From assembly GCA_021154065.1 (NCBI GenBank), contig JAJKJG010000282.1, forward strand, positions 1-8,293: 8,293 bases of DNA, written 5' to 3'. The notes beneath the pieces are model-generated. The model saw only the letters and a list, made by a program, of their open reading frames with translations. It ran no database searches and had not been told where the DNA came from. The DNA is from Methylobacterium sp. Its GTDB lineage: Bacteria; Pseudomonadota; Alphaproteobacteria; Rhizobiales; Beijerinckiaceae. This document shows, piece by piece, positions 1 through 8,293 of this stretch; position 1 is the first letter of the stretch; the number at the start of each line of letters is the position of its first letter. Made by a program: the position numbers and the translations under genes.

Positions 1-537
1 GAGCGGATGGTCGGCGAGGCGGTCGCGGCGCTGGGTAAGCTCGACATCCTGATCAACAATGCCGGCACGCCGGGCTCGCTGCAGCCGATCGAGTTTGCCG
101 ACCTCGACGCCATGACGGAAGCGTTCTGGCAGCTCATCCTGTCGACGAACCTCATCGGCCCGTTCCGCTGCGCGCACGCCGCCGCGCCGGCGCTGAAGGC
201 CGCGAAGGGCGCGATCGTCAACACCGCGTCGGTCGCGGGGCTTGGGCGGCGCGGCAGCAGCATGGCCTACGGCGCCTCGAAGGCCGGCGTCATCAACCTG
301 ACGAAGGGCCTCGCCCGGGCGCTCGCGCCTGAGGTGCGCGTCAACGCCGTCGCGCCGGGCCTCGTCGCGACGCCGTGGACGAACCCGTGGCCGGACGAGC
401 GCAAGCAGGCGACGCTCGAGCGCACGCTCCTCGGCAAGGTGGCGCAGCCGATGGACATCGCGCAGGCGATGCTGTTCCTTGCCGTGCACGGCCACATCAC
501 CGGTGAGACCATCGTGGTCGACGGGGGATTCAGCTAG
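1..537 (+). CDS. SDR family NAD(P)-dependent oxidoreductase, C-terminal part
   Basis: This is a short-chain dehydrogenase/reductase cut off by the left window edge. About 178 residues are visible; family members are usually about 250, so roughly 70 N-terminal residues with the TGxxxGIG cofactor loop lie outside. Seen directly: the NNAG motif (visible residues 19-22), a candidate catalytic Ser in NTASVAG (77), the YxxxK pair as YGASK (Tyr90, Lys94), the RVNAVAPG segment, and the usual C-terminal ITGETIVVDGGF ending. The reading frame is open from base 1, so the internal ATG at 7 is not a real start. SDRs of this type oxidise alcohols or reduce ketones in the cytoplasm using NAD(P)(H). The substrate cannot be told. 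The next gene encodes a beta-keto acid cleavage enzyme, so a beta-hydroxy acid is an inferred candidate. The stop codon lies inside the left arm of an inverted repeat. Confidence 0.93.
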   Translation, partial: ERMVGEAVAALGKLDILINNAGTPGSLQPIEFADLDAMTEAFWQLILSTNLIGPFRCAHAAAPALKAAKGAIVNTASVAGLGRRGSSMAYGASKAGVINLTKGLARALAPEVRVNAVAPGLVATPWTNPWPDERKQATLERTLLGKVAQPMDIAQAMLFLAVHGHITGETIVVDGGFS

Positions 538-576
538 AGCAAAATCCGGTCATGCTGACTCGATTTTCGCTCTAGC
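533..576. repeat. Inverted repeat overlapping the SDR stop codon
   Basis: Positions 533-546 pair with 562-576 with a single one-base bulge, around a 15-nt loop. The SDR stop codon TAG (535-537) is inside the left arm. It could act as a transcription end for the SDR gene, but there is no T-tract after it. It directly precedes the palindrome at 587-633, and the two together look like one intergenic repeat element. Confidence 0.6.
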
Positions 577-586
577 TTCTCGTTTG

Positions 587-633
587 AGCATGATCTTTTC
601 CGCGAACCGGTGTCCACTTCGCGGGATCATGCT
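587..633. repeat. Rhizobiales-type intergenic palindromic repeat
   Basis: AGCATGATC (587-595) is perfectly complementary to GATCATGCT (625-633). Inside it, CCGCGAA (600-606) pairs with TTCGCGG (618-624). This leaves a TTTT bulge and an 11-nt loop containing CCGGTGTCCAC. The organisation GAGCATGATCTTTTC - ACCGGTGTCCACTT - GATCATGCT matches, from memory, a very common intergenic palindrome of Bradyrhizobium and related genera. It sits between the SDR and BKACE genes and may separate their transcripts. Confidence 0.7.
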
Positions 634-698
634 GAATACGGAGAATACGTAACGCAGGCGGCGGGATTGCGGGAACACGGGCCGGGAATGGAGAGAAC

Positions 699-1574
699 AT
701 GTCGCGGAAAACCGTCATCACCTGCGCGCTCACCGGCTCCTTCGACACGCCGTCGAAGAATCCGGCGGTGCCGGTCACGCCGGCCGAGATCGCGAATTCC
801 GCGCTCGACGCCGCGAAGGCCGGGGCCGCCGTGGTGCACATTCATGTGCGCGATCCGAAGACCACGAAGCCATCGATGGAGCTCGCGCTGTACCAGGAGG
901 TCGTCGACCGCATCCGCGACAAGAACGGCGATGTGGTCCTGAACCTGACGACCGGGGCCGGCGGGCGCTTCGCGCCGGACCCGGCCGAGCCGAGGAAGGC
1001 CGGCGAGGGCACGACGCTGACGACGCCCGCCATCCGCATGCGCCACATCGAGGCGATCCGGCCTCCGATCTGCACGCTCGACGTCGCCACGATGAACTTC
1101 GGCGAGACGATTTTCGCCAATACTCCCAGCCACTTGCGCGAGATGGCCGATCGCGCGAAGGCCGCCGGCGCGAAGCCCGAGATCGAAGTCTTCGACCTCG
1201 GCCATATCGAGCTCGCGAAGCGCCTCATCGCCGACGGCCACCTCGCCGAGCCGCCGCTGTTCCAGATCTGCCTCGGCATCTCCTATGGGGCGCCGGCGAC
1301 GCCGGAAACGCTCATCCAGATGCGCGACCGCCTGCCGAAGAACGCCGCCTGGTCGGCCTTCGGCATCGGCCGGACCGAGTTCCCGATGGCGGCGGTCGCG
1401 GTCGCGGCCGGCGGCAACGTCCGCGTCGGGCTCGAGGACAACCTCTATCTCGGCAGAGGTCAGCTCGCGCCGAGCAACGCGGCGCTCGTCGAGCGCGCCG
1501 CGACCATCGTCGAGCTCCTCGACGCGTCGGTCGCGAGCCCGGCCGAGGCGCGGGAGATCTTCGGGCTTGGTTGA
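699..1574 (+). CDS. BKACE-family beta-keto acid cleavage enzyme (DUF849, Kce-like)
   Basis: The 291-residue protein belongs to the BKACE family, whose founder is 3-keto-5-aminohexanoate cleavage enzyme (Kce). The family performs a Zn-dependent reversible Claisen-type exchange: a beta-keto acid plus acetyl-CoA gives acetoacetate plus a new acyl-CoA. Seen directly: an N-terminal ITCALTGS strand, the hallmark HIHVRDP with the two presumed Zn-binding histidines His47 and His49, the NLTTGAGG segment (about 87-94), and GLEDNLY, whose Glu246 fits the third metal ligand (Glu230 in Kce). Length is normal and nothing is broken. The ATG at 699 is supported by a GGAG at 690-693 with a 5-nt spacer. It lies 161 nt after the SDR gene with palindromes between, so co-transcription is uncertain, but a dehydrogenase-then-cleavage pair is biochemically sensible. 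Substrate specificity in this family varies widely and is not assigned here. Confidence 0.93.
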   Translation: MSRKTVITCALTGSFDTPSKNPAVPVTPAEIANSALDAAKAGAAVVHIHVRDPKTTKPSMELALYQEVVDRIRDKNGDVVLNLTTGAGGRFAPDPAEPRKAGEGTTLTTPAIRMRHIEAIRPPICTLDVATMNFGETIFANTPSHLREMADRAKAAGAKPEIEVFDLGHIELAKRLIADGHLAEPPLFQICLGISYGAPATPETLIQMRDRLPKNAAWSAFGIGRTEFPMAAVAVAAGGNVRVGLEDNLYLGRGQLAPSNAALVERAATIVELLDASVASPAEAREIFGLG

Positions 1575-1595
1575 TCCTTCCGCGGAACGCTCGCC

Positions 1596-1625
1596 GTCAT
1601 GATGAAAGTGTCCGATCATCATGAC
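1596..1625. terminator. Hairpin after BKACE, possible terminator
   Basis: A perfect 10-bp stem (1596-1605 with 1616-1625, GTCATGATGA/TCATCATGAC) with a 10-nt loop begins 21 nt after the BKACE stop. There is no T-tract, so intrinsic termination is only possible. The right arm is shared with the longer stem at 1617-1669. Confidence 0.45.
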
Positions 1626-1669
1626 CGGGGGACGTTGGAATCGCAGGCGAATCCGATCCGGTCATGATG
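1617..1669. terminator. Hairpin at the end of the TRAP permease gene
   Basis: CATCATGACCGG (1617-1628) is a perfect 12-bp inverted repeat of CCGGTCATGATG (1658-1669), around a 29-nt loop. Read on the - strand, the arm at 1658-1669 contains the permease stop codon (1662-1664). It is a candidate transcription end for the TRAP operon, competing with the 1596-1625 stem. No T-tract is present. Confidence 0.4.
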
Positions 1670-3710
1670 GCGATGCGCCGGCCTCTGCGGCTCGGTCGAG
1701 GCGGTACGCGGCGAGCTGGCGGATCAGCACCGGCACGACGAGCGTCGCGCCGAGGAGCGACGAATAGAGTTCCGGCGCGACGAGCAGGATCGCCGCGACG
1801 ATGAGGAGCACCCGCTCCCAAAAGGCGGTCCGGGTCAGGAGCCAGCCGGTAATTCCTGCGCTGAGGCAGCTGATGCCGGCGGCGCAGCCGAGGAAGGCGA
1901 GCCAGAAATCCGGCCAGTTGAAGCCCTTGGCGACGAGGAGAAGCGAGGGCGAGAACACGAACACGAACGGCACCAGCACCTTGCCGAGGCCGAGCCGGAA
2001 GGCGGTGTTGCCGGTCCGGAAGGGGTCGGCTCCCGCCATGCCGGCGGCCGCATAGGCGGCGAGCGCCACCGGCGGCGTGATGTCGGCAAGCACGCCGTAA
2101 TAGAACACGAAGAAATGCGCGACGATCGGCTCGACGCCGAGGAGGCCGAGCGCCGGCGCGGCGATCGTCACCATGATGATGTAGTTTGCCGTCGTCGGTA
2201 TCCCGCAGCCCATCAGGATGCAGACGATTCCGGTCATGATCAGCGTGAAGAGCAGCGTCAGGCTCTTGAGCGAGGCGAGCCAGGCCGGCAGCACCGCCGC
2301 GATGCCGGCGGCGAGGCTCCCGGCGGTGGACGTCACGATGTAGGACAGCTTGAAGCCGACGCCGGTGAGCGTCACGACGCCGACGACGATGCCAACGGTC
2401 GCGGCGGCGGCGCCGACCGCGAGCGCATATTTCGCGCCGTCGCGGAGGCCGTCGAAGACCTCGCCGGGGCTCATCCGCCGGCGCGGGTTGAGGAGGCCGA
2501 CGGCGATGCACAGCGTGATGCCCCAGAACGCCGCCATGTAGGGCGTGTAGCCGGCCATCAGGATGGCGATCAGCGCGACGAGCGGGATGACGGTCGGCCA
2601 GTCGCGGCGGAAGGCCTCCCTCAGGTCGGGCATCTCGTCTGGCCGCAGCCCGCGCAGCCCGTTGCGCTTGGCCTCGAAATGCACCTGCATGAAGACGCCG
2701 AAGAAATGCATGAAGGCCGGCACGATCGCCGCCATGATGATGGTGGTGTAGGGCAGGTTCAGGAACTCGATCATCAAGAACGCCGCCGCGCCCATGATCG
2801 GCGGCGTGATCTGCCCGCCGGTCGAGGCGGTCGACTCGACCGCCGCCGCGAAATGCTTCTTGTAGCCGAGGCGGATCATCGCCGGGATGGTCAGCGAGCC
2901 GACCGTGACGGTGTTCGCGACCGACGAGCCGGAGATCATCCCGAACAGGGCCGAGCCGAAGATCGCGACCTTCGCCGGCCCGCCGGCGTAGCGCCCCGCG
3001 ACCCAGGCGGCGCAATCGAGGAAAAGCTGGCCGAGGCCGATGCGGGTCGCGAAGACGCCGAACAGCACGAAGTGGAAGACGTAGGTCGCGACGACGCCGA
3101 GCGCGATACCGTAGATGCCTTGCGTCGTCAGGTAGAGATGGTCGATCAGCTGCGCGAAGCTCGAGCCGGGATGGACCAGGATGCCGGGCATCGACTGGCC
3201 GAGCATGGCGTAGGCCATGAACAGAAGCGCGATGATCGGCAGCGGCCAGCCGACGGAGCGTCGGGTCGCTTCGAGCAGCACGAAAACCAGCACGGCGCCG
3301 AGGATCACGTCGCTCCGGGTCGGGTTGCCGACCCGGAAGGCGAGATCGTCGAGCGGAATCAGCGGCACGTGCAGCACCGCCACCACCGCGGCAACGGCGA
3401 GGATCCAGTCCGGCAGGGAGATGCCCAGCGGATGAAGCAGGCCCGGTGGCACCGGCCGCTCGTAGCCGCGCTTGGCAATCGGGAAGACGAGGAAGATGAG
3501 GCCGAGGACGAAGGAGAGGTGGACGCCGCGGTGGATCATCTCGGGCAGGAGCCCGAAGCCGGCCGTGTAATAATGGAACAGCGACAGCACCACGAGGAGC
3601 GTGCCGACGAGCCGCGCCGCGAGCGGCGCGAGCGGGCGGAAGCGGATCTCGGAGTCGAATTTCTCCTCGAGCTCGCGGGCCTTCGCCTCGTCGAGTTCCA
3701 TCGTGGGCAT
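1662..3710 (-). CDS. TRAP transporter permease, 4TM/12TM fusion (DctQM type)
   Basis: The 682-residue membrane protein fuses the small (4TM, DctQ-like) and large (12TM, DctM-like) subunits of a TRAP transporter, the arrangement usually paired with TAXI-type binding proteins. It imports a solute delivered by the periplasmic protein, driven by an ion gradient. Seen: a soluble charged N-terminus (1-25), many hydrophobic helices from about 30 on, and family signatures SGSSVANTVTVGSLTIPAMI (260-279), STGGQITPPIMGAAAF (296-311), GCGIPTTANYI (501-511) and DITPPVALAAYAAAGMAGADP (543-563). Length is normal. The ATG at 3710 has GGAG 5 nt upstream on the - strand; a second ATG three codons in is possible. 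It lies downstream of the solute-binding gene, with a large palindromic element in the 184-nt gap. Substrate is unknown. Confidence 0.95.
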   Translation of the reverse strand: MPTMELDEAKARELEEKFDSEIRFRPLAPLAARLVGTLLVVLSLFHYYTAGFGLLPEMIHRGVHLSFVLGLIFLVFPIAKRGYERPVPPGLLHPLGISLPDWILAVAAVVAVLHVPLIPLDDLAFRVGNPTRSDVILGAVLVFVLLEATRRSVGWPLPIIALLFMAYAMLGQSMPGILVHPGSSFAQLIDHLYLTTQGIYGIALGVVATYVFHFVLFGVFATRIGLGQLFLDCAAWVAGRYAGGPAKVAIFGSALFGMISGSSVANTVTVGSLTIPAMIRLGYKKHFAAAVESTASTGGQITPPIMGAAAFLMIEFLNLPYTTIIMAAIVPAFMHFFGVFMQVHFEAKRNGLRGLRPDEMPDLREAFRRDWPTVIPLVALIAILMAGYTPYMAAFWGITLCIAVGLLNPRRRMSPGEVFDGLRDGAKYALAVGAAAATVGIVVGVVTLTGVGFKLSYIVTSTAGSLAAGIAAVLPAWLASLKSLTLLFTLIMTGIVCILMGCGIPTTANYIIMVTIAAPALGLLGVEPIVAHFFVFYYGVLADITPPVALAAYAAAGMAGADPFRTGNTAFRLGLGKVLVPFVFVFSPSLLLVAKGFNWPDFWLAFLGCAAGISCLSAGITGWLLTRTAFWERVLLIVAAILLVAPELYSSLLGATLVVPVLIRQLAAYRLDRAAEAGASPS

Positions 3711-3733
3711 GACGGCTCCATGGCGCGCAAACT

Positions 3734-3876
3734 GTCATTCCGGGGCGCGCCGCAGGCGCGAGCCCGGAACCCATAAACACTTGCGGCGCCGATCGCGCAC
3801 GAGCGTTCGAGCGCGATCGGAAGGGCTAGCGGTTATGGGTGCCGGGCTCTCCGCTTCGCGGAGCCCCGGAATGACG
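3734..3876. repeat. Composite palindromic element between SBP and permease genes
   Basis: The outer arms are inverted copies: GTCATTCCGGGG (3734-3745) against CCCCGGAATGAC (3864-3875), and ACCCATAA (3769-3776) against TTATGGGT (3833-3840). Each arm can fold by itself; the right one has CTCCGC/GCGGAG with a 3-nt loop. The centre holds a perfect 10-bp stem, CCGATCGCGC (3789-3798) with GCGCGATCGG (3811-3820), whose 12-nt loop contains CGAGCGTTCG. The GTCATTCCGGGGC..GCCCGGAACCCATAA form is one I recognise as a high-copy intergenic repeat in Bradyrhizobium-like genomes, comparable to enterobacterial REP/BIME elements. It lies inside the TRAP operon and may protect the upstream SBP mRNA or damp expression of the permease. 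Confidence 0.8.
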
Positions 3877-3894
3877 ATGGCGAAGCGGCTCGGG

Positions 3895-4881
3895 TTACTT
3901 CAGCAACCCTGCTTCCTTGTAGAACTTCTCGGCGCCGGGATGGAGCGGAATGCCGAGCCCGGTGGTCGCGGTCTTCGCGGTGATCAGCTTGCCCTTGGCG
4001 TGACCGGCGTCGAGCTGCTTGCGGGTCTCGTCGCTCCAGAGCGCCTTGGTGATCTTGTAGACGAGGTCCTCCGGCTGCTTTGCCGTCGTGACCCACTGGG
4101 CGTTGACCGAGATGGTCTGCGTCTCGGCGACGTCCTTGTAGACACCGGCCGGCACCGTGTCCTTGGCGAAGAACTTGTATTCCGCCAGCAGCTTCTCGAC
4201 CTGCGGTCCGGCGATCGGAACGAGGCTGATGCCGGAGGAGGTCGCAAGCTCGGAGATCGCCCCGGTCGGATAGCCGCCGACGAAGAAGAAAGCGTCGAGC
4301 GCGTTGTCCTTCAGCCGGTCGCCGGCCGGTCCGGGCTTGAGGTATTCGGGCTTGATGTCCTTCTCGGTGATCCCGAAGGCGGCGAGCACGAGCCGCGAGT
4401 CGACGATCGTGCCCGAGCCCGGCTCGTCGATCGAGACGCGCTTGCCCTTGAGGTCGGCGACCGATTTGATGTTGGCATCCTTGCGCGCGACGATGTGGAC
4501 CGTTTCGGGGTAGAGCGTTGCGATGACGCGCAGGTCCTGGACCTTGGGCTTGCCCTCGTAGAGGCCGGTGCCGGTGTAGGCCCAATAGGCGACGTCCGAC
4601 TGCGTGAAGCCCGATTCGGACGAGCCGCCCTGGATGGCGTTGATGTTCGCGACCGAGCCGTTCGAGGAGACCGCGGTCGAGACGAGGCCGGCGACGCCCT
4701 TGCCGCCGTCCTGGCCCGAGATCGCGTTCGCGATGAGGCCGCCGATCGGGTAATAGGTGCCGCCCGTCCCGCCGGTGCCGATGCGGAAGAAGGCCTGCTG
4801 CGCGAGCGCAGCGCCGGCGGAGCCGACGGCAATAAGCAACGCGCCGGCCACGGCTTGGCGTCTGCTGGTCCTGAATATCAT
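3895..4881 (-). CDS. TAXI-family TRAP transporter solute-binding protein
   Basis: This is a periplasmic solute receptor of the TAXI family that hands its ligand to the fused permease encoded downstream. It has 328 residues from the ATG at 4881. That start is preferred over the ATG at 4908 because a strong purine-rich site (GGAGGGAGAG) precedes it and because it gives a compact signal peptide: SRRQ, a hydrophobic stretch, then ALA before QQ, with predicted cleavage after residue 27. The twin arginines (7-8) hint at Tat export, but the rest of the Tat motif is poor. The mature N-terminus carries the family signature IGTGGTGGTYYPIGGLIAN (about 34-52), and the C-terminus has the usual GIPLHPGAEKFYKEAG ending. 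Length is normal. TAXI proteins bind small organic acids or amino acids; the ligand here is not predictable. The cupin gene starts the same strand run 94 nt upstream. Confidence 0.94.
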   Translation of the reverse strand: MIFRTSRRQAVAGALLIAVGSAGAALAQQAFFRIGTGGTGGTYYPIGGLIANAISGQDGGKGVAGLVSTAVSSNGSVANINAIQGGSSESGFTQSDVAYWAYTGTGLYEGKPKVQDLRVIATLYPETVHIVARKDANIKSVADLKGKRVSIDEPGSGTIVDSRLVLAAFGITEKDIKPEYLKPGPAGDRLKDNALDAFFFVGGYPTGAISELATSSGISLVPIAGPQVEKLLAEYKFFAKDTVPAGVYKDVAETQTISVNAQWVTTAKQPEDLVYKITKALWSDETRKQLDAGHAKGKLITAKTATTGLGIPLHPGAEKFYKEAGLLK

Positions 4882-4975
4882 TCGGGTCTCTCCCTCCGGG
4901 ACGATCAAATGCCGCCCAATGCAACCGTCGGGTATCCGGACGTGCGTTTCAAGCCCGGTCGCGGGGAACGGCCGG

Positions 4976-5383
4976 TCAGCCCGTCGGCGCGACCGCGTAT
5001 TGCTCGTCGGTGACGTGCTCGAGCCAGGTCACGTGGACGCCGTTCTGGTGCTCGTGCAGGGCGAGGTGGACGAGCCCGCTCGTCGGCGACGCGCCATGCC
5101 AATGCTTCTCCTCCGGCGGGATCCAGACCGTGTCGCCGGGGCGGATCTCCTCGACCGGGCCGTTCCATGTCTGCACCCGCCCGACGCCCGAGACGACGTG
5201 CAGCGTCTGCCCGAGCGGATGGGTGTGCCAGGCGGTGCGCGCGCCGGGCTCGAACGTCACCCGCACCGCCTTGACCCGCGCCGGCTCGGGAGCCTCGACG
5301 ATCGGGTCCTGCCACACCGTCCCGGTGAACCATTCGCCGCGCCCGCGCCGCGTCGCGACCGCAACCGCCCGGGTGATGTCCAT
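4976..5383 (-). CDS. Small manganese-type cupin, (R)-hydroxynitrile lyase-like
   Basis: The 135-residue single-domain cupin closely resembles, from memory, the bacterial hydroxynitrile lyase-type cupins of Granulicella tundricola (GtHNL) and Acidobacterium. Seen directly: WFTGTVWQDP (18-27), FEPGARTAWHTHPLGQT (44-60), the GD turn (83-84), EEKHWHGASPT (91-101) and LEHVTDEQY at the C-terminus. The metal-ligand set His53, His55, Gln59 and His94 falls at the same residue numbers as in GtHNL, as do His96 and His106 in the pocket. Many such proteins are annotated only as cupins and their natural role is unclear, so hydroxynitrile lyase activity is a hypothesis. The ATG at 5383 has an excellent AAAGGAGG 6 nt upstream; a longer frame to 5557 would run through the tRNA remnant and is rejected. 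It lies 94 nt before the TRAP binding-protein gene on the same strand and could be co-transcribed. Confidence 0.88.
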   Translation of the reverse strand: MDITRAVAVATRRGRGEWFTGTVWQDPIVEAPEPARVKAVRVTFEPGARTAWHTHPLGQTLHVVSGVGRVQTWNGPVEEIRPGDTVWIPPEEKHWHGASPTSGLVHLALHEHQNGVHVTWLEHVTDEQYAVAPTG

Positions 5384-5464: not shown

Positions 5465-5512
5465 TGGCTGGGGCGCCAGGATTCGAACCTGGGAATGGCG
5501 GTACCAAAAACC
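5465..5512 (-). tRNA. tRNA-Gln(UUG) 3' fragment, attachment-site remnant
   Basis: Read on the - strand this is the 3' portion of a tRNA-Gln gene. It has the anticodon loop TTTTGGT (5509-5503) with anticodon TTG at 5507-5505, the 3' anticodon strand ACCGC (5502-5498), variable CATTC (5497-5493), a perfect T-arm CCAGG-TTCGAAT-CCTGG (5492-5476), the 3' acceptor strand CGCCCCA (5475-5469), discriminator G and encoded CCA (5467-5465). Upstream of about 5512 the sequence does not resemble a tRNA: no D-arm, no 5' acceptor strand, and the 5' anticodon strand carries a mismatch. It is therefore not functional as it stands. With a tyrosine integrase 157 nt away, it is best read as the att duplicate left when an element inserted into the tRNA gene. 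Confidence 0.88.
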
Positions 5513-5524
5513 TCCAGTCGGTAA

Positions 5525-5606
5525 TTCCGGGCATTTCCCTGAATTTCCTGTGATCATCTAAGTCTCTGCGACAACGCAGGTTCTGATTGTCAGTTGTTTC
5601 CGGGCA
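5525..5606. repeat. Direct repeat TTCCGGGCA beside the att core
   Basis: The 9-mer TTCCGGGCA occurs at 5525-5533 and again at 5598-5606, with further TTTCCC and TTTCC runs at 5534-5548. This lies in the AT-richer strip between the tRNA remnant and the integrase. It could be an integrase-binding site; no match to a characterised att site can be claimed. Confidence 0.4.
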
Positions 5607-5623
5607 GGTCCGGACGTAAGCTC

Positions 5624-5645
5624 CCAGGTGGTAGCCAGGTGGTAG
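5624..5645. repeat. 11-bp perfect tandem repeat upstream of the integrase
   Basis: CCAGGTGGTAG is repeated exactly head to tail at 5624-5634 and 5635-5645, 24 nt before the integrase ATG. A period of about one helical turn in front of an integrase gene fits arm-type integrase sites or an operator for the integrase promoter. That role is an inference. Confidence 0.55.
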
Positions 5646-5668
5646 CCCGCTGGCCTTCGAGCACGAAA

Positions 5669-6934
5669 ATGCCTCAAGCCAAATTGACCAAGCGAGCGGT
5701 TGACGCGCAAAAGCCAGGTCCGGTGCGCTTCACGGTTTGGGACGCCGACGTGTCGGGCTTCGGGTTGCGTGTCACCCCTGCGGGAGAGCGCGTCTACGTC
5801 CTGAAATACCGGGCGCGCGGCAAGCAGCGCTGGTACACCATTGGCCGTCACGGCTCTCCCTGGACTCCCGAGATGGCACGAAGGGAGGCAATACGGTTAT
5901 TGGGCGAGGTCGCGCGTGGCGTCGACCCGGCTGACAAGCGGGAGGCGGATAATCAAGCAGAGACGGTTGCGCAGCTCTGCGACCTCTATCTAGCTGAGGG
6001 TGTCGGGCACAAGAAGGCGTCCACCCTCAAGGCTGATCGCGGTCGAATAGAGCACCACATAAAGCCCCTCCTCGGCAGGCAGCGGGTTGATGCAATTACG
6101 CGAGCTGACGCCGAGCGAGTTCTCGGTGACGTGAGCAAGGGCAGGACCGCGGCCGCGCCATTGCGGAACGGTGCACGAAAGCCGGGGAGCATGCCGCGAG
6201 GAGGCAGGGGAGCCGCCGCTCGGACCGTTGCCCTTCTCGGGACGATTATGGCTTTTGGAGTGAGCCGGAACATCCGAGCCGATAATCCGGCGCGCGGCAT
6301 CAAGCTGCCGAAATCCCGCAAGATGGAACGCTTTCTGTCCGAGGCGGAGATTGCCCGGCTGGCGTCCGCGCTCGACGAAGAGGCGAACACAAGCGGCAAC
6401 GTATTCCCCAGCGCGGCCATTAAGCTCCTCCTCCTGACCGGCTGCCGCCGAAGCGAGGTCCTGAACCTCCTTTGGCCCGAAGTCGACTTGGATCACCGAT
6501 GCCTGAGGTTGCCCGACAGCAAGACGGGGGCAAAGGTCGTCTATCTGAACGCACCAGCCTTGGCTCTGATCGCCGGTCTGCCACGGCGAGACGGCAACCC
6601 GCATCTCATCCCAGGCATGCGGGCCGGCGAGCCTTTCATTGGAATAGACAAAGTGTGGGTGCGAGTGCGGGCCCGGGCGGGGTTGGAGAATGTCCGCCTC
6701 CACGACCTGCGGCACTCGTTTGCATCCGTGGGCGCAAGCGGCGGATTGAGCCTACCGTTGATCGGCGCACTGCTAGGTCACCGCCACAGTACGACGACGA
6801 GTCGCTACGCCCACCTCTCCGCGGACCCGATCCGCGCCGCCAACGAAGCTGTGGGAGCACGGATCGCCGCCGCGCTTGAAGGGAAGCCCTCGGGCGAGGT
6901 TGTGCCGCTCCAGCGGCCCGGCAATTGGGGCTAG
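5669..6934 (+). CDS. int: Tyrosine-type site-specific integrase (DUF4102/P4 family)
   Basis: This 421-residue tyrosine recombinase inserts and excises the island at the tRNA-Gln target. Seen: an N-terminal arm-binding DUF4102-type domain (about 1-85, with DADVSGFGLRVTPAG and YRARGKQRWYTIGRHG), a core-binding SAM-like domain (about 90-210), and a catalytic domain with the full set: Arg260 in TGCRRSEVL, His345 and Arg348 in LHDLRHSF, His371 in LLGHRHS and nucleophile Tyr380 in SRYAHLS. The core-binding domain carries an R/G-rich segment (about 156-187), which I recall in other alphaproteobacterial integrases. The ATG at 5669 is chosen because DUF4102 proteins start just before the KLT motif. 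A TTG start at 5594 would add 25 atypical residues and run through the tandem repeat. The ribosome site is weak. Third positions hold more A/T than in the chromosomal genes to the left. Confidence 0.95.
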   Translation: MPQAKLTKRAVDAQKPGPVRFTVWDADVSGFGLRVTPAGERVYVLKYRARGKQRWYTIGRHGSPWTPEMARREAIRLLGEVARGVDPADKREADNQAETVAQLCDLYLAEGVGHKKASTLKADRGRIEHHIKPLLGRQRVDAITRADAERVLGDVSKGRTAAAPLRNGARKPGSMPRGGRGAAARTVALLGTIMAFGVSRNIRADNPARGIKLPKSRKMERFLSEAEIARLASALDEEANTSGNVFPSAAIKLLLLTGCRRSEVLNLLWPEVDLDHRCLRLPDSKTGAKVVYLNAPALALIAGLPRRDGNPHLIPGMRAGEPFIGIDKVWVRVRARAGLENVRLHDLRHSFASVGASGGLSLPLIGALLGHRHSTTTSRYAHLSADPIRAANEAVGARIAAALEGKPSGEVVPLQRPGNWG

Positions 6935-6989
6935 GCTCAGCCTGTGGACGGGCGACGGGGCGGCGCTGCTCTTCCCGTTGCGACCGGTG

Positions 6990-6995
6990 TAGAAT
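6990..6995 (+). promoter_or_regulatory. Possible -10 element in the integrase/7090-gene gap
   Basis: TAGAAT, preceded by TG, resembles a sigma-70 -10 box about 95 nt before the GTG at 7090. No convincing -35 hexamer sits 16-18 nt upstream, so this is a weak call. The rest of the 155-nt gap (6935-7089) shows only the inverted repeat described next. Confidence 0.2.
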
Positions 6996-7034
6996 CTCCC
7001 ATGCGCGGGGCCGGCAGGCCAGCCGTCGCGTCCA

Positions 7035-7087
7035 TGTCACCGCCGGGACGCTGCCCCGCGCAACTCCCTCGGCGGTGGGCGGTGACA
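7035..7087. promoter_or_regulatory. Inverted repeat ending at the start of the 7090 gene
   Basis: TGTCACCGCC (7035-7044) is perfectly repeated in inverted form as GGCGGTGACA (7078-7087), with a 33-nt loop. The right arm ends 2 nt before the GTG start at 7090 and covers the only G-rich stretch that could serve as its ribosome-binding site. It could be a translational hairpin or an operator. Confidence 0.45.
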
Positions 7088-7089
7088 AA

Positions 7090-7791
7090 GTGACAGAACA
7101 CGATTGGCCGGAGCTTGCGGCTCAGGAACTCGAATGGGCGCCGAGCCCGACGTTGGACCCGAATGCTGTGCCGGTGGGGGATGGCGATTGGGTGCCACTT
7201 ACGCCCGTAATCGACTTCTTGGCCGAGCACGGCAATCCGGTCGGCGTGACGCAAGGCGCGGCCCGCGCGCTATTCAAGCCCGCAAAGCGGGGCGAATTAC
7301 GTTTGGAAGGCTCGGAGACGAAGTGCGGGAACCCGTCAATAGCTATTCCTCCGAGCTACTTCCGCAACGCGCGTATCGCCCGCGGGGATACCGTTGCTAT
7401 AGACTACGATGCGGTCTCCAGCGGCGAAGAGTTTGTCGATCTCAGACTAGCTGGCCATAAGCCATGGCATCATGTGCACGTGTATAGGCCGGACTTGGTG
7501 ACGTGGCTCCTCACCTTGTTGCCGCAACCCGATCTGAAACCTGTTGCTGCTGACCTTAAAGCGGCGCAGCTCCCCGACCCCCCGCGCCGAGCTTCACTGA
7601 AGCTGGACCTGGAGAACGCCTACAAAGCTTGGGTAGCGGAGTACCCCGACCCGCCGTATCCCAACGAAAAGGCCGACTGTCTACACATGCAGGCGCTGTT
7701 TACCATCAACCGCGACCGCGTGCGCGAACTCCGCCGGGACTTTTCTCCAGAGGAATGGAAGAAAACGGGACGACGCCGTAAGGTGGTTTAA
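7090..7791 (+). CDS. Conserved hypothetical protein of integrated elements
   Basis: The 233-residue protein has no function I can name. It is soluble, with no signal peptide or membrane segment. Seen: an acidic, Trp-rich N-terminus containing WVPLTPVIDFLAEHG (about 34-48); a middle part with FRNARIARGDTVAIDYDAV (about 90-108) and HVYRPDLVTWL; then a highly charged, probably helical C-terminus, RDRVRELRRDFSPEEWKKTGRRRKVV. From memory, proteins with a W(V/L)PL start and an RDRVRELRR..W...GRRK end recur in prophages and islands of Hyphomicrobiales without an assigned role. The basic tail suggests nucleic-acid contact. The GTG at 7090 is chosen because upstream residues to 6925 are Arg/Cys/Gly-rich and unlike protein, and 6925 overlaps the integrase. 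An in-frame GTG at 7075 is an alternative. The repeat array begins at its stop codon. Confidence 0.72.
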   Translation: MTEHDWPELAAQELEWAPSPTLDPNAVPVGDGDWVPLTPVIDFLAEHGNPVGVTQGAARALFKPAKRGELRLEGSETKCGNPSIAIPPSYFRNARIARGDTVAIDYDAVSSGEEFVDLRLAGHKPWHHVHVYRPDLVTWLLTLLPQPDLKPVAADLKAAQLPDPPRRASLKLDLENAYKAWVAEYPDPPYPNEKADCLHMQALFTINRDRVRELRRDFSPEEWKKTGRRRKVV

Positions 7792-7824
7792 TCTCGCGGC
7801 TAATCTCGCGGCTAATCTCGCCGT
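7789..7824. repeat. Three tandem 12-bp repeats (TAATCTCGCGGC)
   Basis: TAATCTCGCGGC is present exactly at 7789-7800 and 7801-7812. A third copy at 7813-7824 differs at two positions (TAATCTCGCCGT). The first copy includes the TAA stop of the preceding gene. Two further CTCGCSG copies follow in inverted orientation (7833-7839 and 7846-7852). The array resembles iterons or clustered regulator sites. Confidence 0.85.
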
Positions 7825-7855
7825 TTTCTCTCCCGCGAGTTTTGACGGCGAGATT
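7814..7855. promoter_or_regulatory. 11-bp inverted repeat closing the repeat array
   Basis: AATCTCGCCGT (7814-7824) is perfectly complementary to ACGGCGAGATT (7845-7855) around a 20-nt loop that contains a further CCGCGAG. It could end transcription of the 7090 gene, though no T-tract follows, or be part of a protein-binding array controlling the next gene. Confidence 0.6.
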
Positions 7856-7870
7856 CCTGTGTGAATATTA

Positions 7871-7956
7871 GGTGTCCTCGCCGCTTGGCATGTTGCCCGG
7901 CGGCTCCGGTAGAGGATGCCCCGCGTATCAGGGTGTCCTCTTCGACAAGAGGACAC
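7871..7956 (+). promoter_or_regulatory. Leader with GGTGTCCTC half-sites and RBS-containing hairpin
   Basis: GTGTCCTCTT (7933-7942) and AAGAGGACAC (7947-7956) form a perfect 10-bp stem with a 4-nt CGAC loop. The right arm contains AGAGGA, the ribosome-binding site of the gene starting at 7960. GGTGTCCTC occurs once more as a direct copy at 7871-7879, giving three half-sites. A weak promoter-like pair, TTGGCA (7885-7890) and TAGAGG (7910-7915), lies between them with a long 19-nt spacer. It may be an operator for autoregulation or a translation-limiting hairpin. Confidence 0.6.
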
Positions 7957-7959
7957 ACA

Positions 7960-8178
7960 ATGCCTTCCGATTACATGACCCCGAAAGAGGCGGCTGACTA
8001 CGTCCGCAGCTCGCCCTCTACTCTCGCCAAGCGCAGAATTACCGGACAGCTTCCGAATTTCAGTCGGATCGGAAAGGCAATCCGGTACCGGAGAGCGGAC
8101 CTCGACGCCTGGATGACCGGCAACGTTCGCCGCTCCACGTCCGAGCTTCCGCCCGCTCCCGCGCAAGTCGGGGCCTGA
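7960..8178 (+). CDS. AlpA/excisionase-like helix-turn-helix protein
   Basis: This 72-residue DNA-binding protein is of the MerR-like excisionase/AlpA type (helix_turn_helix_17). Seen: MTPKEAADYVRSSPSTLAKRRITGQLPNF (winged helix-turn-helix, about 6-34), then the wing and closing helix RIGKAIRYRRADLDAWM (about 36-52), followed by a Pro/Ala-rich tail. In known elements such proteins act as excisionases (directionality factors for the integrase) or as activators of integrase or replication genes. Its place in the same island as the integrase supports either role. The ATG at 7960 is chosen for its AGAGGA ribosome site and because the protein then begins just before the domain; an open frame upstream to 7861 is Cys/Arg-rich and unlikely. 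The ribosome site is buried in a hairpin, so expression may be kept low. Confidence 0.85.
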   Translation: MPSDYMTPKEAADYVRSSPSTLAKRRITGQLPNFSRIGKAIRYRRADLDAWMTGNVRRSTSELPPAPAQVGA

Positions 8179-8184
8179 TCCTCA

Positions 8185-8293
8185 ATGACCAGCGCACGAC
8201 CGCAAAAGGAAGCCCCGCAAACGGGGCTAACCGCGCGGGGCTTGAAAGTGATTTTTGCTATGACGACGCTACACGCCCGCGCCTCTGTGCGCA
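8185..8293 (+). CDS. Possible partial ORF running off the window
   Basis: An ATG 6 nt after the preceding stop opens a frame that stays open for 36 codons to the window edge (MTSARPQKEAPQTGLTARGL...). I recognise no domain in this short piece, and the ribosome-binding site is poor. The spacing is typical of an operon, and small genes or primase/helicase genes often follow AlpA-like genes in such islands. The GC-rich hairpins at 8210-8243 lie inside the frame, so the stretch may instead be non-coding. Confidence 0.3.
   Translation, partial: MTSARPQKEAPQTGLTARGLKVIFAMTTLHARASVR
8210..8243. terminator. Alternative GC-rich hairpins after the AlpA-like gene
   Basis: Two exclusive stems share a left arm. 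AGCCCCG (8211-8217) pairs with CGGGGCT (8222-8228) with a 4-nt loop, and AAGCCCCGC (8210-8218) pairs with GCGGGGCTT (8235-8243) with a 16-nt loop. A run of five T follows at 8252-8256, 8 nt past the longer stem. This could be a terminator or attenuator; it overlaps the tentative ORF from 8185. Confidence 0.45.

Follow-up and report, generated by a model that had tools for sequence, protein, structure and literature searches.

The DNA analysed here, which we call the window, is a stretch of 8,293 nt from Methylobacterium sp. carrying five genes on its left, a short segment that resembles part of a tRNA gene, and on its right the gene of a tyrosine integrase followed by two smaller reading frames (Table 1). 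The tRNA-like segment lies between the cupin and the integrase genes and overlaps no conserved coding domain.

Table 1. Features of the window around the tRNA-Gln fragment
Feature	Position	Strand	Basis
Probable host-side block: SDR, BKACE, DctM transporter, TAXI receptor, cupin	1..5383	.	Order as in L001; Pfam
Cupin gene, first on the left of the junction	4976..5383	-	Pfam Cupin_2; 81% amino acid identity to L001
Displaced 3' half of tRNA-Gln(UUG), very probable core of attL	5465..5512	-	Exact match to intact tRNA-Gln(TTG) genes
Anticodon loop TTTTGGT, where the crossover (overlap) probably lies	5503..5509	-	Intact genes are identical up to 3 nt past the loop
Paired repeat GGCTACCA-N3-GGCTACCA, start-to-start distance 11 nt: putative arm-type sites of the integrase	5629..5647	-	
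Tyrosine integrase, 421 aa	5669..6934	+	Pfam Arm-DNA-bind_3, SAM-like, Phage_integrase; PHROG integrase
Island ORF, 233 aa, no known family	7090..7791	+	No match at E 0.001
HTH_17 / excisionase-like small DNA-binding protein	7957..8178	+	Pfam HTH_17; PHROG 66

Read on the minus strand from 5512 to 5465, the segment is GGTTTTTGGTACCGCCATTCCCAGGTTCGAATCCTGGCGCCCCAGCCA, 48 nt whose first three bases precede the anticodon loop and which end in CCA. Three Microvirga genomes (G002, G003 and G011) have this 48-mer, with 0 mismatches, in their intact tRNA-Gln(TTG) genes, and a search of 397 family genomes found it in many others, an exact match to a functional tRNA that rules out chance. In the 35 intact loci that were read (L081-L083, L145, L147-L174, L181, L183 and L184), all of them called tRNA-Gln by ARAGORN, the letters up to and including the first three of the 48-mer are GGCAGCGGT, whereas the window has ACTGGAGGT at the corresponding place, so that identity stops three bases before the anticodon loop. 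The D arm and the 5' acceptor strand are missing. In this line, ARAGORN detected no tRNA in the window; at a lowered score it returned 92 low-scoring candidates, among which the one over the fragment was on the other strand and without isotype, and an Rfam search of the window with E up to 1 gave no tRNA and nothing near the junction. The sequence-only reading had described the segment as the 3' half of tRNA-Gln(UUG), running from the anticodon arm to CCA and broken at about 5512, with the 5' half gone and an integrase beside it; the 48-nt identity, the ARAGORN result and an integrase start codon 157 bp from the break bear out this description in full. With that ATG at 5669, the span 5465-5668 comprises the fragment plus the integrase-side attachment arm. 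To judge from the letters at which identity ends, strand exchange would have taken place within the anticodon loop, a preferred sub-site of tRNA genes. Genome G127 was also noticed to have the tRNA-Gln(TTG) 3' end twice, the further copy being on another contig and differing by one mismatch (G127:C5:7143 and G127:C56:2735).

The integrase gene contains the complete R...K...HxxR...H...Y set, as R260, K286, H345, R348, H371 and Y380, which we take to be the catalytic residues of the enzyme. The 233-aa reading frame that follows matched nothing in Pfam, NCBIfam, PHROG or PADLOC at E 0.001, and BLASTP revealed no similarity to the ORF at the same place in L175, a locus of the related genome G332; a perfect 12-nt tandem repeat, TAATCTCGCGGC, occurs at its end (7789-7812). 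The small HTH_17 protein matches a PHROG described as excisionase and transcriptional regulator, scores just below the cut-off of TIGR01764 (27.6 against 28.8 bits) and, from these similarities, is probably a candidate directionality factor for excision. It also shows a weak similarity to mad1 (PADLOC E 7.5e-6; NCBIfam 23.3 bits where the cut-off is 80), beyond which PADLOC and NCBIfam yielded no defence genes. No tRNA gene was found by ARAGORN in the visible part of the island (5513-8293).

On the other side of the junction, the five left-hand genes keep their order in L001, a locus of a Microvirga sp. MAG, and this common order indicates that the left side is probably host chromosome. In L001, the cupin gene adjoins an indolepyruvate oxidoreductase gene (a name read from its translation) and not tRNA-Gln, and a tRNA-Gln(TTG) 3' segment was not found in that genome, a MAG that may be incomplete, even with 3 mismatches allowed; tRNA-Gln and cupin were seen side by side only in the window. 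Moreover, no empty site of the window's island appeared among the matches listed, best first, from the 397 family genomes, none of which aligns past query position 74 of 129. The proposed division into chromosome on the left and island on the right is partly supported by the gene order of the Microvirga MAG, but is not matched by an equivalent junction there or by an empty site among those listed matches. Around intact tRNA-Gln(TTG) genes, tRNA-Pro lies upstream in 27 of the 35 loci, while the 3' flanks are alike in little between most loci compared. Homology to the integrase within 1.5 kb downstream was found in none of the 35 (L183 offered only 64 nt), so the variable flanks fit an integration hot spot but prove none.

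These data bear on an accretion scenario, in which the DNA left of the fragment would be an older island, or a rearranged block at the same tRNA, and the boundary would be one of island against island. Such a history is compatible with the interpretation favoured below, from which it differs on the left side only, and it would account for the oxidoreductase gene that precedes the L001 cupin without any tRNA-Gln, as well as for the dissimilar 3' flanks; tandem islands do exist in the same integrase family (genome G097, see below). We nevertheless regard it as unlikely, given the five genes conserved in order in the Microvirga MAG (main BLASTN pieces at 82-89% identity), none of them a mobile-element gene according to Pfam, and the lower GC content right of the fragment (62.9%, against 68.0% on its left).

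Some minor features of these flanks can be mentioned. A palindrome-like repeat between two genes (window 3732-3888) matches L001 at 12131-12283, in both orientations, and at 8902-9057. The minus strand at 492-642 has a weak match to the Brucella sRNA BASRCI27 (29 bits, with the gathering score at 59.8); positions 568-633, moreover, have matches of 83-85% in L008 and L054. One genome, G404, has two different intact tRNA-Gln(TTG)/tRNA-Pro(CGG) loci (C179 and C270), possibly a sign of a mixed assembly.

Relatives of the integrase (E up to 1e-60) occur in 81 of the 397 family genomes, and their 30 best-scoring loci were scanned for a T arm, acceptor strand and CCA within 700 bp upstream of the integrase. 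Counting the window, a tRNA 3' half was found in 18 of 31 loci (17 of the 30 relatives), compared with 10 of 2000 random 750-bp background segments taken from L001-L080. All 18 fragments are on the strand opposite to the integrase, with their CCA end 193-243 bp from its start, and those of the relatives break off at a boundary similar to that of the window, near the anticodon loop. ARAGORN found a whole tRNA in none of the 30 loci. The remaining 13 relatives (L119, L122, the seven loci L128-L134, L136, L139, L142 and L144) may use other sites, or tRNAs that escape the strict search pattern. The fragments correspond to nine tRNAs: Gln UUG, Gln CUG, Arg CCG, Gly CCC, Gly GCC, His GUG, Ala CGC, Thr GGU and Val CAC, types that come from our own reading of the anticodon loops and are backed by ARAGORN on intact genes for Gln UUG, Gln CUG, Arg CCG and Gly GCC.

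The nearest integrases with readable surroundings are those of G332, G237 and G019 (59-64% identity) and of an Azospirillum oryzae plasmid (52%), each found beside the 3' half of a tRNA-Gln(CUG) on the opposite strand; in the first three, the CCA end lies 193-195 bp from the integrase start. Closer homologues (93%, 90% and 78%) are present in the protein database as proteins only, without context. A scan of IMG/VR with the window integrase gave two pattern matches and no relative, and identity to phage records reached at most 33.3% among the 20 listed of 586 records.

In each of the genomes G332, G237 and G019 the tRNA-Gln(CTG) 3' segment, with up to 3 mismatches allowed, is present twice: next to the integrase and, on another contig, within an intact gene, with a 46-nt segment common to both. 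The search for such partners covered 12 of the 17 relatives with a fragment (all except G315, G012, G291, G025 and G250) and recovered an intact gene in 8 of the 12, or in 8 of the 10 where the pattern also recovered the fragment itself. Among the nine further genomes, the partner was intact in G058, G096 and G329 (Arg CCG) and in G376 and G097 (Gly GCC). No intact copy within 3 mismatches accompanied the two tRNA-Arg(CCG) fragments of G285 (G285:C1:548280-562319) or the single one of G224 (G224:C1:1994695), and in G132 and G247 the pattern matched nothing, their own fragments included. The earlier prediction of an intact tRNA with the same 3' segment, carried over to the relatives, therefore held in 8 of 12 genomes, while no intact copy was found within 3 mismatches in G285 and G224, two of the ten.

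Two genomes display both ends of an island on one contig, with the intact tRNA at the far end and in the same orientation as the fragment. In G096, a fragment at 4238512-4238556 is followed by the integrase (4238742-4239998) and, 10.4 kb from the fragment and on the same strand, by an intact tRNA-Arg(CCG) starting at 4248937. In G097, two fragments, at 568936 and 612061, are each accompanied by a separate integrase and lie ahead of a single intact tRNA-Gly(GCC) at 628029, so that two islands stand in tandem. A comparable layout involves tRNA-Gln(TTG) in G299, where the intact gene and a 45-nt 3' fragment are 58 kb apart and an integrase stands beside the fragment, although this enzyme is distant from that of the window (26% identity over part of its length). 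For the G237 island, a search of 20 other genomes from the same genus revealed no empty site.

The element ends share a further trait. Among the loci compared, a double motif, GGCTACCA...GGCTACC, was found at seven distinct places, each of which is an element end. Four of these copies adjoin the integrase (window, G332, G237 and G019), two adjoin the intact tRNA (G237 and G019), and one closes the G332 element on the right. The corresponding positions in the Azospirillum plasmid element (integrase side) and in G096 (intact tRNA side) carry paired repeats of a different sequence. From their position and the Arm-DNA-bind domain of the integrase, the GGCTACCA repeats are probably its arm sites. 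The predicted far end of the window's island, that is, tRNA-Gln(TTG) followed at 25-55 bp by an exact GGCTACCA, had 0 matches in the 397 family genomes.

Altogether, the window combines a truncated tRNA, an intact integrase gene and paired repeats, and its relatives have a like anatomy, including both ends on a single contig. It is very probable that 5465-5512 is the core of attL, the integrase-proximal end of an island integrated in the anticodon loop of tRNA-Gln(UUG), with the tRNA rebuilt at the far end. In such a model, the attP of the island would bring along a tRNA copy that spans anticodon loop to CCA, the empty attB would read tRNA-Gln(UUG), then GCTCCGTCGTCGAGAATC, then the cupin gene, and integration would join the attP copy to the 5' half of the host at the right end, rebuilding a working tRNA-Gln and leaving the original 3' half of the host stranded beside the integrase. 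This enzyme would read the tRNA-derived core and the paired GGCTACCA arm sites, and the small HTH_17 protein would drive the direction of excision. From the relatives, an intact tRNA is expected at the far end of the window's own island, and the host would, if the model holds, rely on the island for the 3' half of its tRNA-Gln(UUG). In many better-known islands the integrase adjoins the rebuilt tRNA and not a dead half; in the integrase family of the window, a lone tRNA 3' half beside an integrase marks the island end.

A different outcome of the same reaction would be an attP with only a short core, in which case the tRNA would not be rebuilt and a complete tRNA-Gln would be encoded elsewhere on the element. 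Insertion of this tRNA-dependent kind is known in mycobacteriophages, where a tyrosine integrase likewise splits an essential tRNA gene and, according to excerpts of PMC10865867, about 10 bp are common and the tRNA is not rebuilt. The far end of the window's island lies outside the window, which leaves room for this arrangement, but at least 46 nt are common to fragment and intact gene in the three nearest relatives, the intact gene is found at the far end in G096 and G097, and the visible part of the island has no tRNA gene; we consider it extremely improbable.

One related element does not fit the anatomy just described. In G332 (contig C152), the stretch L175 5050-13753 is an 8.7-kb element with integrase, HTH and primase (RepB_primase, PriCT_2, DUF3631) genes, and with no capsid gene among the ORFs searched, a part of the set, which gives it a satellite- or plasmid-like look. 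Both of its end stretches have counterparts in G237, at 98.4% and 100% identity, and its last 734 bp are identical to the G237 end that abuts the intact tRNA; its own right end (L175 13700-14003), however, meets DNA that ends in CAGCCA and is not a tRNA, in the place of a rebuilt tRNA-Gln(CUG). This genome does have an intact tRNA-Gln(CUG), on another contig and beside a different repeat. A secondary-site insertion, a later deletion or a chimeric contig are possible readings. A serine recombinase ORF (L175 3490-5082) overlaps the dead tRNA half with its last bases, and another mobile element may border the G332 island. A right end of this kind, together with G285 and G224 and their lack of a recognisable intact partner, would also agree with the window holding an old tRNA pseudogene or attachment remnant whose element lost its right end and is no longer live. 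This we judge very unlikely for the window, where the integrase is open with its catalytic residues present and the 48 nt are unmutated relative to intact genes; close homologues of the integrase (93% and 90%) exist in the protein database.

With a rebuilt tRNA as the favoured interpretation, the window agrees with islands already described. The Islander tDNA islands, which are recognised by this very signature, comprise 3' fragments in 3760 of 3919 cases and anticodon-centred sites in 2083 (excerpts of PMC4383910); the window shares with them the tyrosine integrase, the displaced 3' fragment and the anticodon-centred site, but its far end is out of view and the paired-end rule is thus inapplicable to it. 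PYG1 of Pyrococcus yayanosii lies between a partial and a whole Gln-TTG gene, with a repeat of 44 bp that is similar in length to the 48 of the window (excerpts of PMC9897764); its host is archaeal, and the comparison concerns target and repeat. The available excerpts of PMC11476347, on integration hot spots in Sinorhizobium, include no passage on tRNA-Gln, and we found no literature joining tRNA-Gln, genomic island, integrase and Methylobacterium, which may still exist in print. In this regard, the window contains an island boundary that is real, correctly placed and of a kind already well known, the ordinary attachment-site scar of a tDNA-targeting island, with one island end fixed to the base.

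The apparent switch between tRNA-Gln isoacceptors is a mildly new point in an otherwise ordinary case. The G332, G237 and G019 elements, from the family of the Microvirga MAG G001, have the same opposite-strand tRNA half and the same paired GGCTACCA repeats as the window, but these elements and that of the Azospirillum oryzae plasmid sit in tRNA-Gln(CUG) and not in tRNA-Gln(UUG). In a maximum-likelihood tree of 18 integrases (L117 is partial), the window enzyme groups with the three tRNA-Gln(CUG) integrases with a support of 98/97, and these three form a group of their own (91/88). This grouping, combined with the 52% Azospirillum oryzae relative at tRNA-Gln(CUG), places the window integrase in a Gln-specific lineage, at the other isoacceptor. 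We give roughly even odds to a switch of isoacceptor within this lineage, from CUG to UUG or the reverse, in which the anticodon-loop crossover and the arm sites would have been kept and the island would now depend on, and rebuild, the tRNA that reads CAA codons, tRNA-Gln(UUG); the UUG case is a single one, that of the window. Integrase sequences set against their target tRNAs, nine types in one geometry, form a small data set useful for studies of target change. If the geometry is truly fixed across the nine tRNAs, with the dead half about 200 bp from the integrase and on the opposite strand, the target would be predictable from the letters upstream of the integrase.
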